A stretch of 21,802 bases of DNA, taken from IMG/VR virus record IMGVR_UViG_3300037042_005793, positions 1 to 21,802 of that record, one strand, 5' to 3'. Shown piece by piece: positions 13,932 to 18,736 of this stretch. Position 1 is the stretch's first letter; each line of letters begins with the position of its first letter. The translations under genes were made by a program, and so were the position numbers. The DNA comes from a virus. The notes under the pieces are model-generated. The model made no database searches. It was not told the DNA's origin and worked only from the letters and a program-made list of their open reading frames with translations.

Positions 13932-14221
13932 ATGAGGCATGGCAAGGAAAAAGATTTAAAACTAAAAAGTATAAAAGCTATGAAATAGAATTGCTTTACC
14001 TATTACCGCCTTTACAAATACCTAAAGGCAATTTAGATATAGATATTGAGTTTGGTTTTAGTAATGTGGCTAAAGATATAGACAATCCGGTTAAACCTTT
14101 TTTGGATATTTTACAAAAAAGATATACTTTTGATGATAAACGGATTTATAAATTAACAATTGTAAAAAAAATAGTTCCAAAAGGTAGCGAATACATAGCT
14201 TTTAAAATAAATGAAAACTGA
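13892..14221 (+). CDS. rusA: RusA-like Holliday junction resolvase
   Basis: A 109-residue protein, close to the usual RusA length of about 120. It begins with PLSVNEAWQGKRFKTKKYKSY, the N-terminal 'P.s.N..w....r..Tk....y' motif. KDIDNPVKPFLDIL (D62, D64, D72) and FDDKRIYKL (D81, D82) carry the acidic residues that bind metal in RusA. It would resolve four-way junctions made by replication and recombination before packaging. Its 40-base overlap with the HNH gene is long, but the start is needed for the first motif. Confidence 0.85.
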   Translation: MVKGIAYIQPLSVNEAWQGKRFKTKKYKSYEIELLYLLPPLQIPKGNLDIDIEFGFSNVAKDIDNPVKPFLDILQKRYTFDDKRIYKLTIVKKIVPKGSEYIAFKINEN

Positions 14222-14747
14222 AACAATTAACATCTCAAAAATTAAATCAAATCCAAATAATCCAAGAATTATTAAGGACGATAAATTTCACAAATTAGTT
14301 AATTCAATAAAAGAGTTTCCTAAAATGTTAGAAATTAGACCAATTGTTGTTAATAATGAAATGATTGTATTGGGCGGCAACATGCGCTTAAAGGCTTGCA
14401 TAGAAGCAGGCTTAAAAGAAGTTCCAATTATTAAAGTAACTGACATGACTGAAGAAGAACAAAACGAATTTATCATAAAAGATAATGTTGGTTTTGGAGA
14501 ATGGGATTGGGATATTTTAGCAAATACTTGGGACATGCAGAAATTACTAATTTGGGGATTAGATACAATTAAACACGATTGGGATAAATTAGATTACATT
14601 GAAGACCAAGTGCCTACTCCTAAATTAAATAATGATAATGAATTAGTTATTCTTATTTGCGATGAATGGATGGAAGATAAAAGGCAAGTTGAGGATGGAA
14701 TAAAACAATATTTATCTGATAATTTTAGCGGTTGTGGTATCAAATAA
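14211..14747 (+). CDS. ParB-like (ParB/Srx fold) protein leading the modification operon
   Basis: A 178-residue protein. Residues 5-75 are a ParB-type N-terminal domain: NPNNPR at 14-19, LVNSIKEFPKMLEIRPIVV, and GGNMRLKACIEAGLKEVP with the G-G-N-M-R box at 55-59. In Bacteroidota phages this domain usually precedes or is fused to a DNA methyltransferase; here a DpdA-like enzyme takes that place, overlapping by 14 bases. ParB/Srx domains bind and hydrolyse nucleotides, and the bacterial Dpd system also needs an ATPase partner (DpdB). It may therefore position or power the transglycosylase; whether it is related to DpdB cannot be seen here. Confidence 0.75.
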   Translation: MKTETINISKIKSNPNNPRIIKDDKFHKLVNSIKEFPKMLEIRPIVVNNEMIVLGGNMRLKACIEAGLKEVPIIKVTDMTEEEQNEFIIKDNVGFGEWDWDILANTWDMQKLLIWGLDTIKHDWDKLDYIEDQVPTPKLNNDNELVILICDEWMEDKRQVEDGIKQYLSDNFSGCGIK

Positions 14748-15630
14748 TACTTATTTTAATATTTTAGTTAGTTTTGCCTATTTAGGTAAATCTAAATCTT
14801 TTTGCGATAGCGTTTTTAAATTAAGCACTAATGGCACCGCAAACATTATGATTGATAGCGGCGCATTTACTTTATTTAATGCAAAAAAAGAACAACCATG
14901 GTTAAATTTAGATGGCTATTGTAATTTTTTAGAGCAATATGGCGAGTTAGTAGAAAAATATGTAATGCTTGATGTTATTGGCAATGAACATAAGAGCAAA
15001 GAGAATTATGAAATAATGTTAAAAAGAGGATTTAATCCAATGTTTGTTTTTACAATGGCGGATAACGATTACTCTTATTTAAAACAAGCAGTGGCTAATA
15101 ATCCTCATTTGTGCGTTGCAGGAGGCGTAACTACTAAAGGAGATTGGATGACTAAAAGATTTCAAGATGTCTATTCTAAAACGCAAGCTAAAATTCATGG
15201 ATTAGGATATGTTAGTTATCCAAAAATATATCAATTGCCTTTACATAGTGTGGATAGCAGCAGTTGGGTACAAGCAAGTCAAGTTTATGGAGTGTTAAAC
15301 TATTTTGATAATGGATTAAAAGGAGTTTCTTATAGAGATGTCTTATCAAAAAAGAAAAAAATACCTACTAAATTAATTGAGTTATTAGAAAAGGTAAAAA
15401 TATCGCCTAAAGATTTTAGCAACATAGAATTTCATAAAGGAAATAGAAGCATAGCAACCTTGGTAGGTATAATTGCATACATGGAATACCAAAAGCTATC
15501 CAAAAGAAAAGATATTAATTTATTTTTAGCAGTAGCTAATGAATTGCAAATCAAACTATTAAGTTATGTTAATAAAGAATATCAAAACGGAACTTTAGAT
15601 TATGAAAAATTTAGAAAAGGTAATTTATAA
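14734..15630 (+). CDS. dpdA: DpdA-like DNA guanine transglycosylase
   Basis: A 298-residue protein starting at a GTG inside the ParB-like gene. It resembles the tRNA-guanine transglycosylase barrel as reduced in phage DpdA proteins. IMIDSGAFT (D41) corresponds to the TGT DSGGF base pocket, VMLDVIG (D80) to the second pocket Asp, and CVAGGV (130-131) to the GGL loop. HSVDSSSW (D174) matches the GVD strand with the catalytic nucleophile Asp. The Cys/His zinc site of classical TGT is absent, since there is no cysteine after residue 127. It would exchange guanine in phage DNA for a 7-deazaguanine base made by the downstream genes, protecting the DNA from host nucleases. Confidence 0.8.
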   Translation: MVSNNTYFNILVSFAYLGKSKSFCDSVFKLSTNGTANIMIDSGAFTLFNAKKEQPWLNLDGYCNFLEQYGELVEKYVMLDVIGNEHKSKENYEIMLKRGFNPMFVFTMADNDYSYLKQAVANNPHLCVAGGVTTKGDWMTKRFQDVYSKTQAKIHGLGYVSYPKIYQLPLHSVDSSSWVQASQVYGVLNYFDNGLKGVSYRDVLSKKKKIPTKLIELLEKVKISPKDFSNIEFHKGNRSIATLVGIIAYMEYQKLSKRKDINLFLAVANELQIKLLSYVNKEYQNGTLDYEKFRKGNL

Positions 15631-15943
15631 ATATGTTGTAGTTAAGTTACAATTTGAAGGCATACATAGATGGGAGAATTGCCATTTAGATGAAGTTTTC
15701 TTTTTAAAAGATTACCATAGACATATTTTCCATGTTGAGTTAACTAAAAAAGTTAGCCACAATGATAGAGATATCGAAATAATTAAATTAAAAAGAGACA
15801 TTTTAGAATATTTTGGTACTCAACCGGTGCATTTAGATAATCAAAGTTGCGAAGATATTGCAGAGAAGTTATTAATAAAATTTGATGCATGCAGCGTTAA
15901 GGTACTTGAAGACAATGAAAATGGAGCATTTGTAACCTTATGA
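15602..15943 (+). CDS. Small T-fold (QueD-like) protein without catalytic Cys
   Basis: A 113-residue protein overlapping dpdA by 29 bases and the next gene by 4. Its motif order follows the QueD/pterin-synthase T-fold: GIHRW with H22, YHRHIFHVEL with H39 and H41 (the three zinc His), SCEDIAEKLL where QueD has 'tsEnla..i', and VKVLEDNENGAFV with E103 where QueD has the pterin-binding Glu. The position four residues before the first His of the pair, where QueD has its catalytic Cys, is Leu35. It may act on a 7-deazaguanine base, as the T-fold enzyme QueF does, or assist DpdA. The assignment is from pattern reading only. Confidence 0.5.
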   Translation: MKNLEKVIYKYVVVKLQFEGIHRWENCHLDEVFFLKDYHRHIFHVELTKKVSHNDRDIEIIKLKRDILEYFGTQPVHLDNQSCEDIAEKLLIKFDACSVKVLEDNENGAFVTL

Positions 15944-16902
15944 TAGTATACCTGCCTTTAGAAAGTATTGATATGCGCTATACGGCGCACTTGGATAGAG
16001 ATATAAGAGAGTATTTAAACCTTATGCACAACAATAATTACATTGTGTTAGAGGCAGAGAAAGGAGATGGTAAAATAAGCGCAGGAAGTTTTTTAGATGC
16101 AGGCTTAACCATAATGAGTAAAAGCAAACAAATACATCAATTGGCTTTATTGTATAGAAATAATACAATTAATGATAATGATATTATTTTTACAAGCGAT
16201 TTATGGTTTCCGGGAATAGAAAGTGTAGCATATTTGAATTACTTTTATAATAAAAAGGTAAAATTAAAAGGAATAATCCATGCAGGCAGCTTTACCGATA
16301 CCGATTTTGTTAGAGACATGGAAAGGTGGGCAAAGAATTTTGAAGATGTCATATTTGATATATCCGATACCATTTTTGTAGCAAGCGAGTTTATTAAAAA
16401 TGATATTTTAAAGAAAAGATTAGTAGCTAAAGATAAAATAGTAGTTAGTAATTTGCCTTTAGATTATAAATTAATGAATGAGTTTAAAAATAATGCAGAG
16501 AAAAAGAATGTAATTATATTTAATGGGAGGAATGTTGATGAAAAGCAACCTTGGTTATTTGAGGAACTTAAAAAGCAATTGCCTCAATATGAATATATTA
16601 ACACTCATGAGTTAAATTTAAACAAAAAGGATTATTATAAATTACTATCAACATCAAAAGTGGTTGTTAGCTTTGCGCTGCAAGAAAACTTTGGTTATGG
16701 TATCCAAGAGGCAGCTTATTTAGGTTGCATTCCTATTTTACCTAATAGATTGGTTTATAAAGAACAATTTGATATAAAATATAGGTATGATAATTTTTTA
16801 GATTGTATAAAATTGGTAGCAGCAGCAATGGAAAACCAAATAGAGCAATCTAAATTAAAAGAAATAAATAATAATTTAATATTTAATAAATGGTTTAACT
16901 AA
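15940..16902 (+). CDS. GT-B-type glycosyltransferase inside the 7-deazaguanine operon
   Basis: A 320-residue protein with two Rossmann-like halves. The first contains GIIHAGSFTDTDF (about 111-123) and DTIFVASEFIKNDIL, the classic end of a GT-B N-terminal domain. The second begins NVIIFNGRNVDEKQPW and holds QENFGYGIQEAAYLGCIPIL (248-267), the E-x7-E donor-sugar motif of GT4-like enzymes. The general layout recalls tRNA-queuosine mannosyltransferase relatives. Its position between the transglycosylase and QueD, with a 4-base overlap upstream, suggests that it glycosylates the inserted 7-deazaguanine. Donor and acceptor are not proven by sequence. Confidence 0.65.
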   Translation: MIVYLPLESIDMRYTAHLDRDIREYLNLMHNNNYIVLEAEKGDGKISAGSFLDAGLTIMSKSKQIHQLALLYRNNTINDNDIIFTSDLWFPGIESVAYLNYFYNKKVKLKGIIHAGSFTDTDFVRDMERWAKNFEDVIFDISDTIFVASEFIKNDILKKRLVAKDKIVVSNLPLDYKLMNEFKNNAEKKNVIIFNGRNVDEKQPWLFEELKKQLPQYEYINTHELNLNKKDYYKLLSTSKVVVSFALQENFGYGIQEAAYLGCIPILPNRLVYKEQFDIKYRYDNFLDCIKLVAAAMENQIEQSKLKEINNNLIFNKWFN

Positions 16903-16903
16903 T

Positions 16904-17350
16904 ATGTATATCTCAACAAAAGTATTTGATAATTATTCTGTTGCTTTAAGACAATGGAAGGCAGGGCATAGCCATTGTCAGCTGCTGCATGGTTATGCTT
17001 TAAAGTTTAAAGTATGGTTTAGTGCAGAAAAATTAGATGAAATGAATTGGGTGGTTGATTTTGGCGGTTTTGGTCATAATGGATTTAAAGAATGGATGAA
17101 TAATATGTTTGACCATACTTTATTAATTGAGATAGATGACCCTTATCGCGATTTATTTGACCAAATGGGGCAAATGAATTTATGTAAGGTACAATTTTTA
17201 GAAAATATGGGTTGCGAAAGCCTTGCAAAATTAGTATTCGATAAACTTTCCTACATTTTAGAACATCAAGATGCAGGCAGGTGCAAAGTAATTAAAGTAG
17301 AAGTATTTGAAAACGATAAAAATAGTGGAATTTATGAAATTAAGAATTAG
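16904..17350 (+). CDS. queD: 6-carboxytetrahydropterin synthase (QueD)
   Basis: A 148-residue QueD. It converts dihydroneopterin triphosphate, made by FolE, to 6-carboxytetrahydropterin. Visible marks are RQWKAGHSHCQLLHGYAL with the catalytic C25 and H29, NWVVDFG (48-54), FDHTLLI (D70, H71), CESLA (104-108) and VEVFENDKNSGIYE with E136. It belongs to the 'HSHC...HGYAL' variant in which the usual H-G-H is H-G-Y. This form is known from other bacteria, so it is likely active. It lies one base after the glycosyltransferase and overlaps queE by 17 bases. Confidence 0.9.
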   Translation: MYISTKVFDNYSVALRQWKAGHSHCQLLHGYALKFKVWFSAEKLDEMNWVVDFGGFGHNGFKEWMNNMFDHTLLIEIDDPYRDLFDQMGQMNLCKVQFLENMGCESLAKLVFDKLSYILEHQDAGRCKVIKVEVFENDKNSGIYEIKN

Positions 17351-17936
17351 TGAAATATTTTATTCTTTGCAAGGCGAAGGATTAAGAATAGGAACGCCAA
17401 CCATATTTATTAGGACGGCAGGATGCAAAGCAAAATTTGCCTGCTTTAAAGCGGGAATAGTATGCGATACTGAATTTGAGAGCGGCAAAGATTATACTTT
17501 AGAAGAAATTTTAGTATGGTTAAATACAAATGCGCCGCAATGCAAAGAGATTACTTGGACGGGCGGAGAGCCAACCGACCAATTGACTGAAGAAATGGTA
17601 TCTTATTTTAAAGAGAAAGGATTTTACCAAGCAATTGAAACAAGTGGTTTAAACCCATGCCCTAAAGGCATTGATTTTATTTGCGTATCGCCAAAGGTAG
17701 CAGAGCATGTAATAAAGAAAAACTTTCCTAATGGCGTAACTGAATTAAGATATGTAAGGCATAAAGGTCAAGAGATACCAAATCCAAGTATTGAAGCGCA
17801 GCACTATTGGATTAGTCCTCATTCAGATGGCTTTAATATTAATTCTGAAAATATGAAGCATTGTATTGACCTATGTGTTAAAAATGGAAAGTGGAAACTA
17901 TCATTACAAAATCATAAAATATGGAATATATTATAA
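17334..17936 (+). CDS. queE: 7-carboxy-7-deazaguanine synthase (QueE), radical SAM
   Basis: A 200-residue QueE. I start it at the ATG at 17334, which gives MKLRISEIFYSLQGEG, the usual family start; an in-frame ATG at 17307 would add nine unrelated residues. It contains SLQGEG (11-16), TWTGGEP (74-80), AIETSG (100-105), CVSPK (117-121) and the C-terminal WKLSLQNHKIWNI. It turns 6-carboxytetrahydropterin into 7-carboxy-7-deazaguanine. The iron-sulfur cysteines are oddly spaced: C31, C37 and C44 (C-x5-C-x6-C) followed by D-T, against C-x3-C-x2-C in most QueE. It overlaps queD by 17 bases and folE by 16. Confidence 0.9.
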   Translation: MKLRISEIFYSLQGEGLRIGTPTIFIRTAGCKAKFACFKAGIVCDTEFESGKDYTLEEILVWLNTNAPQCKEITWTGGEPTDQLTEEMVSYFKEKGFYQAIETSGLNPCPKGIDFICVSPKVAEHVIKKNFPNGVTELRYVRHKGQEIPNPSIEAQHYWISPHSDGFNINSENMKHCIDLCVKNGKWKLSLQNHKIWNIL

Positions 17937-18736
17937 CATGGAAAGAAATTATCGAACGCGTAAGTAAGTTTGATAAGAGTTTAAAATATTATGGAGTTCC
18001 AAGAGGCGGTCAATATATCGCTGCAATGCTTAATCCGGTTGATACAATTGAGGAGGCAGATATAATAATTGATGATTTAATTGATAGCGGCAAAACCAAA
18101 ACCAATTACGAGGCTTATAATAAACCTTTTATTGCTTTATTTGATAAACAAAAAGAAGAAGAGTTAAAAGGCAAGTGGCTAATCTTTCCATGGGAGATAA
18201 AAGAAGAGCCAATTGAAGATAATTTTGTACGCATATTGCAATACCTCGGAGAAGACACAACAAGAGAGGGGTTAAAAGATACACCAAAAAGGTATATTAA
18301 GTTTATGAAAGAGTTTCTTGAACCTAAAGAGTTTAATTTTACTACTTTTGATGCAGAGGGAACTGATGAAATGATATTGCAAACCAATATTCCTTTTTAT
18401 TCCTTATGTGAGCATCATACTGCTCCATTTTTTGGGGTAGCAAATATAGCTTATATTCCAAATGGTAAAATAGTTGGGTTAAGTAAATTAGCAAGGTGCG
18501 TTGATTTATACGCAAATAGGTTTCAAAATCAAGAAAGAATAACTACTCAAATTGCAGAAAGATTAATGTTAGAGTTAAATCCAAAAGGTGTCGCAGTTAC
18601 TTTGAAAGCGCAGCATCTCTGCATGTGCATGCGAGGCGTTAAGAAGCACGATACTTGGACAATGACAAGTAAGCTAATCGGAGTATTTAAAGAGGATGAC
18701 AAGGCTCGTAATGAGTTTTTAACGCTAATAAGATGA
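17921..18736 (+). CDS. folE: Phosphoribosyltransferase-GTP cyclohydrolase I fusion (FolE)
   Basis: A 271-residue two-domain protein. Residues 20-92 are a short phosphoribosyltransferase domain: KYYGVPRGG at 22-30 and ADIIIDDLIDSGKT at 46-59, the PRPP-binding loop. Residues 98-271 are a full GTP cyclohydrolase I with zinc ligands C163 and H166 (SLCEHH) and C234 (QHLCMCMRGV), plus NGKIVGLSKLARCVDLYANR and FQNQERITTQIAE. FolE opens GTP to give dihydroneopterin triphosphate, the first step to 7-deazaguanine. The role of the fused domain is unclear; it may handle a purine or 7-deazapurine base. It overlaps queE by 16 bases and the terminase gene by 4. Confidence 0.9.
   Translation: MEYIITWKEIIERVSKFDKSLKYYGVPRGGQYIAAMLNPVDTIEEADIIIDDLIDSGKTKTNYEAYNKPFIALFDKQKEEELKGKWLIFPWEIKEEPIEDNFVRILQYLGEDTTREGLKDTPKRYIKFMKEFLEPKEFNFTTFDAEGTDEMILQTNIPFYSLCEHHTAPFFGVANIAYIPNGKIVGLSKLARCVDLYANRFQNQERITTQIAERLMLELNPKGVAVTLKAQHLCMCMRGVKKHDTWTMTSKLIGVFKEDDKARNEFLTLIR

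Follow-up and report, generated by a model that had tools for sequence, protein, structure and literature searches.

We have identified a compact seven-gene operon in the viral fragment IMGVR_UViG_3300037042_005793, a linear IMG/VR sequence of 21,802 nt with 30% G+C that was analysed whole and is referred to here as the window. The operon probably specifies a self-contained, QueC-independent pathway of 7-deazaguanine DNA hypermodification, in which the base inserted by a DpdA-like transglycosylase would be glycosylated, with the sugar varying among phages. This reading was built by sequence and structure comparison, which covered gene content, family membership, the donor-site residues of a glycosyltransferase (GT), the link between GT and DpdA, the exclusion of QueC and the genes for sugar supply. 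Seven open reading frames (ORFs) lie densely packed on one strand between 14211 and 18736, as an initial annotation had described, and family scans agree with the names that it gave them:

14211 to 14747, plus strand: ParB_N-domain protein (Pfam ParB_N, 1.3e-8; phrog_498, 1.5e-26), opening a conserved gene order of ParB, DpdA, T-fold protein and GT
14734 to 15630, plus strand: DpdA-like protein (DNA guanine transglycosylase) of the 9g/DpdA1-like lineage (phrog_887, queuine tRNA-ribosyltransferase, 5.1e-31)
15602 to 15943, plus strand: QueD-like T-fold paralogue (TF), 113 aa (phrog_17812, of unknown function, 6.2e-24; predicted fold)
15940 to 16902, plus strand: GT, a predicted GT-B, GT4-like retaining glycosyltransferase (AlphaFold2 model, Foldseek, donor-site motifs)
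16904 to 17350, plus strand: QueD, 6-carboxytetrahydropterin synthase family (Pfam PTPS, 1.3e-15; phrog_2389, 1.5e-31)
17307 to 17936, plus strand: QueE, 7-carboxy-7-deazaguanine synthase, a radical S-adenosylmethionine (SAM) enzyme with its start at TTG 17307 or ATG 17334 (phrog_2076, 4.9e-23; TIGR04508, 2.2e-32, a match of near full length but under the curated cut-off)
17921 to 18211, plus strand: phosphoribosyltransferase-like N-terminal domain of the FolE protein (IPRGG-like motif; phosphoribosyl pyrophosphate loop IIIDDLIDSGKT; phrog_8995, 9.1e-4)
18212 to 18736, plus strand: FolE, GTP cyclohydrolase I, in a whole ORF of 17921 to 18736 (Pfam, 5.8e-64, residues 98-271; TIGR00063, over the curated cut-off)

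The genes ParB_N and DpdA overlap by 14 nt, DpdA and TF by 29 nt, and TF and GT by 4 nt; a gap of 1 nt separates GT from QueD, the QueE start overlaps QueD, and QueE and FolE overlap by 16 nt. GT had been described as held between dpdA and queD by 4-base and 1-base junctions; these lengths are correct, but the 4-base overlap is with the TF gene, and it is TF, not GT, that dpdA touches.

Phage 7-deazaguanine modification with DpdA is known as dG+ in 9g and as dPreQ0, made via DpdA2, in nt-1 (Hutinet et al. 2019, PMC6884629). Like these systems, the window operon has FolE, QueD, QueE and a DpdA whose catalytic Asp residues are conserved; it differs from them in that QueC is absent and TF and GT are added. 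No QueC-like match was found by family scans in the operon or among the window ORFs. QueC, which converts 7-carboxy-7-deazaguanine (CDG) to preQ0, belongs to the preQ0 and dG+ branches and not to every member of the 7-deazaguanine pathways. The route from FolE, QueD and QueE to DpdA that the initial annotation had proposed is present as genes; because it lacks QueC, however, the inserted base, judged from gene content, is probably not preQ0. TF is a second signature part.

The GT product was modelled with AlphaFold2 (pLDDT 94.3, pTM 0.91), and a Foldseek search of the PDB matched the model to MshA, BshA and PglA with a probability of 1.00; glycogen synthase and the tetrahydrobiopterin alpha-glucosyltransferase (5ze7, 5zer) were also among the matches. 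Identity to MshA, BshA and PglA is only ~10-15%, and their acceptors are small molecules or lipids, but GT shares with them the GT-B fold and the R-x4-K and E-x7-E donor site, which holds the diphosphate- and sugar-binding residues of GT4-type enzymes. In GT these motifs are R197-x4-K202 and E249-x7-E257, of which R197, K202 and E257 were kept in 50 of 50 relatives and E249 in 46 of 50. Since the donor-site residues are preserved across relatives, a functional nucleotide-sugar enzyme is to be expected. With the model and the motifs in agreement, we are confident in predicting a GT-B, GT4-like retaining glycosyltransferase with an intact donor site. The window GT scored 22.4 bits against Pfam Glycos_transf_1, under the gathering score of 26.4; 32 of the 50 relatives matched this family at E < 0.01. 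A suggested likeness to queuosine-tRNA glycosyltransferases was abandoned, as the tRNA-queuosine mannosyltransferase (QTMAN/GTDC1) model was absent among the Pfam matches of the 50 relatives and the predicted structure was closest to MshA/BshA-type GT4 enzymes.

The neighbourhood of GT was then counted in those IMG/VR loci where the anchor gene had 4 kb or more of sequence to each side; a pooled set, taken from the flanks of dpdA, was collapsed at 90% DpdA identity. Among the GT-anchored loci examined, all those with sufficient flanks contained dpdA together with TF (55/55), and most contained folE (54/55) and queE (50/55), so that the occurrence of GT mostly in phages without dpdA, which the initial annotation had named as a possible objection, was not observed. 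From DpdA2 as the anchor, GT was found in 47 of 49 loci, 45 of them with TF, and QueC was found instead in the other two; a further scan from DpdA2, with QueC-type phage sequences in the lead, returned 47 loci with GT, 4 with QueC and none with both. Scanning from TF, GT was present beside DpdA2 or the window DpdA type and absent beside a third type, here labelled DpdA3-like (12/12). The pooled set held 107 loci with GT and without QueC, TF being present in 105 of these; all 5 loci with DpdA2 and QueC and all 12 with DpdA3-like enzymes and TF lacked GT. Fisher tests gave p = 3e-5 for the contrast of GT with QueC and p = 4e-13 when GT was set against the DpdA3-like class. The same type of GT/TF pair accompanies two unalike DpdA groups, DpdA2 and the DpdA1-like lineage of the window. 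The notion of GT as a chance neighbour was rejected on the co-occurrence in the TF-, DpdA2- and GT-anchored scans.

The same split was seen when 14 complete phage genomes were searched whole, with two exceptions: D479, which gave a partial match to QueC, and PhiXhv-12, described below. PAC2, Phosso, ACP17, X1 and BUCT-ZZ01 encode GT and TF with no QueC over the cut-off, and Ps15, nt-1 and pf16 encode QueC and neither GT nor TF. Because loci and genomes divide in this complementary manner, the GT/TF pair appears to occupy the place that QueC holds in nt-1, pf16 and Menderavirus phages. The match in Vibrio phage D479, which has TF and a DpdA3-like enzyme, spans 153872-154066 of its record and is a partial QueC-family match of 33 bits, over the cut-off. 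Cultured phages that bear the module include the PA5oct type (the P. aeruginosa PA5oct/Paride group), Paride, ACP17, X1 and BUCT-ZZ01. In bacterial genomes, 6 GT relatives were found among 84,980 species, and in 5 cases the contig also encoded FolE.

These counts bear on what GT is for. It is conceivable that the operon yields an unglycosylated 7-deazaguanine and that GT serves elsewhere, for example in host surface or protein glycosylation, given that GT4 enzymes mostly use cell-wall, lipid or small-molecule acceptors; but such a role is decidedly improbable for a GT that accompanies two unalike DpdA groups, neighbours dpdA in 107 nonredundant loci and is complementary to QueC. Alternatively, the substrate of GT could be a soluble pterin or free 7-deazaguanine rather than DNA, for instance if GT served to activate or trap the base prior to its insertion by DpdA. 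The operon produces pterin intermediates, and the cyanobacterial UDP-glucose:tetrahydrobiopterin glucosyltransferase, whose structures are among the GT fold matches, uses a pterin. However, GT tracks DpdA and is missing from the DpdA3-like TF loci (12/12) and from dpdA2 loci with queC, which are pterin makers too, and DpdA pockets would need room for a bulky glycosylated base; we consider a soluble acceptor unlikely.

Genes for sugar supply were compared between 206 GT loci differing in GT sequence and 30 deazaguanine loci without GT. A GalE-family epimerase (UDP-glucose 4-epimerase; one representative scored over the TIGR01179 curated cut-off) was present in 51 of the former, in 34 of these no more than 20 bp from GT, and in none of the latter. 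HldE/cytidylyltransferase-type genes were present in 31 GT loci, 24 of them within 20 bp of GT, and in 1 locus without GT. Both kinds occur chiefly in DpdA2 loci. Because these genes are located with GT, they independently support a nucleotide-sugar reaction with differing sugars. The sugar step that had initially been read from GT thus holds insofar as GT belongs to the deazaguanine pathway, by co-occurrence and by its GalE and nucleotidyltransferase neighbours; that the sugar is placed on a DNA base is what we infer. The T4 alpha- and beta-glucosyltransferases are likewise phage-encoded GT-B enzymes that decorate a base with sugar, but they differ in acceptor base (hydroxymethylcytosine) and pathway, and none of the 50 best PDB matches to the fold of the GT model was a T4 enzyme. 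The action of T4-like enzymes on hydroxymethylcytosine is the ground for supposing that GT has as its target a different modified base in the same phage, for example a 5-hydroxymethylpyrimidine, and is merely housed in a deazaguanine operon. This is highly improbable, as the families frequently found near GT included no recognisable hydroxymethylase-type gene and the QueC-type DpdA2 phages lack GT.

The product of 15602-15943 is a QueD-like paralogue that forms, beside GT, the second signature part of the pathway. Its AlphaFold2 model (pLDDT 95.5) has E. coli QueD (4ntk) as its best fold match (E 1.6e-5), and 41 sequences share the His triad H22, H39 and H41 together with R56, E59, S82-C83-E84 and E103. 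The T-fold thus appears to carry a Zn-binding His triad, metal binding being predicted from model and motif. No conserved Cys, such as the catalytic Cys of QueD, was found ahead of H39-x-H41 (positions 32-38), and C83 is the sole invariant Cys; TF as a second ordinary QueD was rejected, as the QueD fold is present but the catalytic Cys is missing. The idea that TF is always accompanied by GT was also rejected, since TF occurs with DpdA3-like enzymes without GT. A macro-domain partner, annotated in RHph_I1_18, was dropped because the actual partner there is a DpdA3-like gene. DpdA3-like phages without a strong QueC include Cellulophaga phage phiST, Aeromonas Ahp1 and Vibrio D479. These share with the window operon FolE, TF with identical invariant residues and the lack of a strong QueC, and they differ from it in having another DpdA subfamily and no GT; phiST, where TF is found together with a DpdA3-like enzyme, has the complete FolE-QueD-QueE-TF set. 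Cui and colleagues reportedly describe the bases dDG and dCDG in phages, together with DpdA3 as a subfamily and DpdL as a decarboxylase of CDG. Given its presence in phiST beside a DpdA3-like enzyme, TF may be DpdL.

In the proposed pathway, FolE, QueD and QueE, which family scans place together in the operon, would convert GTP to CDG, and TF, replacing QueC, would take over from there, using CDG or an intermediate related to it. DpdA would then put the resulting base in the place of guanine in phage DNA, and the freed guanine would probably be salvaged to GMP by the phosphoribosyltransferase domain. GT would move a sugar from a nucleotide sugar onto the inserted 7-deazaguanine or, less likely, onto the free base before insertion; because GT follows the type of DpdA and not TF, the sugar is most simply added to the base within DNA. 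The donor is probably host-derived in the window phage and in other phages would come through co-encoded genes for GalE or a nucleotidyltransferase, and from this difference in donor supply the sugar probably varies. The acceptor, DNA as the substrate, the order of steps, the sugar, the TF reaction, guanine salvage and protection from restriction are the parts of this scheme that we infer.

Several points weigh against it. Removal of the CDG carboxylate by TF would leave no obvious C7 handle for a sugar: if TF is DpdL, the sugar would need the C7 carbon or N2, and otherwise the CDG carboxylate would be the natural handle. A more specific version, in which TF decarboxylates CDG to plain 7-deazaguanine, GT C-glycosylates C7 with a phage-dependent sugar and some DpdA1-like phages add a radical SAM change, seems to us a doubtful one. 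The exclusion of GT and QueC is not absolute, since a remote homologue of GT (E 4e-41) adjoins a Gat-QueC-like gene in Xanthomonas phage PhiXhv-12. The scans were ranked by similarity to the query, so that unlike GT relatives without dpdA may escape them, and DpdA1-like loci were reached only via GT or TF anchors. The absence of QueC rests on contig fragments and 5 complete genomes, and a host QueC could still supply preQ0. Finally, no nucleoside measurement was found in the literature for any module-bearing phage.

The PhiXhv-12 homologue (L174, 6747-9978) also lies beside a PIG-L deacetylase of the BshB/MshB type, without TF; elsewhere this phage encodes FolE and a member of the QueD family and gives a weak match to DpdA. 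The pairing of GT with a deacetylase resembles the MshA-MshB and BshA-BshB pairs and by analogy suggests a route in which N-acetylglucosamine is added and then deacetylated.

In the window DpdA, D41, D80, H155 and D174 are invariant in 23 relatives, and D41, D80 and D174 presumably correspond to the catalytic Asp residues of tRNA-guanine transglycosylases. Searches with tblastn matched it to genes of EC151, Typha and MiCath that are annotated as queuine tRNA-ribosyltransferases, and by sequence it appears to belong with the 9g/EC151-type DpdA; a PDB search with it returned chance matches only. Comparison of the DpdA1-like and DpdA2 profiles aligned only a short stretch around a conserved His and a DS motif (E 0.1), and because this alignment is so short the two were handled as separate groups.

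The order ParB-DpdA-TF-GT recurs in independent contigs (L006, L086, L087/L088 and L331, the last from a Flavobacterium metagenome-assembled genome) at protein identities of 47-70%, with GT down to 23%; ParB_N keeps its place in L006, L086, L087 and L331 at 47-59% identity and possibly has a role in DNA binding or targeting. L086 is 63% identical to the window in DpdA, 52% in TF and 23% in GT. Across L086 and L087, GT is 23-30% identical against 47-63% for DpdA, TF and ParB, as if GT had been exchanged to alter the sugar.

FolE was correctly named in the initial annotation, which missed the phosphoribosyltransferase-like domain of ~90 residues at its N-terminus, recognised from motifs in the translation and weak library matches. 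A separate Pribosyltran gene is present in 80 of the 206 GT loci, and the phosphoribosyltransferase, fused to FolE or separate, may recycle guanine freed by DpdA.

Among the other neighbours, a radical SAM gene occurs in 13 of 30 DpdA1-like GT loci (L013, L015, L017 and 10 more), abutting GT in at least 9 of the 13; its product of 440-470 aa has a CPNGCAFC motif and possibly performs an extra hypermodification step. Near DpdA2, L168 and 28 other DpdA2 loci encode a second protein, longer (~450 aa) and in L168 (6373-7713) glycosyltransferase-like, which suggests a disaccharide or an alternative sugar. An inosine monophosphate dehydrogenase/GMP reductase gene is found in L029, L032, L037, L052, L125 and L164, adjoining GT in most. 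In the window, FolE is followed by the small terminase gene (18733, overlap 4 nt) and the large terminase gene (19116), and family scans also recognised the tailed-phage genes for a portal, an Erf-like annealing protein and an exonuclease. The large terminase is nearest to those of an unannotated human-faecal phage scaffold and of Phocaeicola and Parabacteroides phages (36-39%), and by this likeness the host is likely a member of the Bacteroidota.

To our knowledge, eight 7-deazaguanine derivatives are recognised in phage DNA, none of them with a sugar. No report of a glycosylated 7-deazaguanine in DNA was found in the literature searched, which did not extend to two key papers (Cui et al. 2023 and a 2024 review). 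If the proposed scheme is correct, one widespread pathway would unite the two main ways in which phages counter restriction, base replacement and the coating of DNA with sugar. It would also assign roles to two gene families whose annotation is unknown or vague, phrog_17812 among them, would account for the many DpdA phages that manage without QueC, and would aid the prediction of phages that resist restriction, CRISPR or type IV enzymes.

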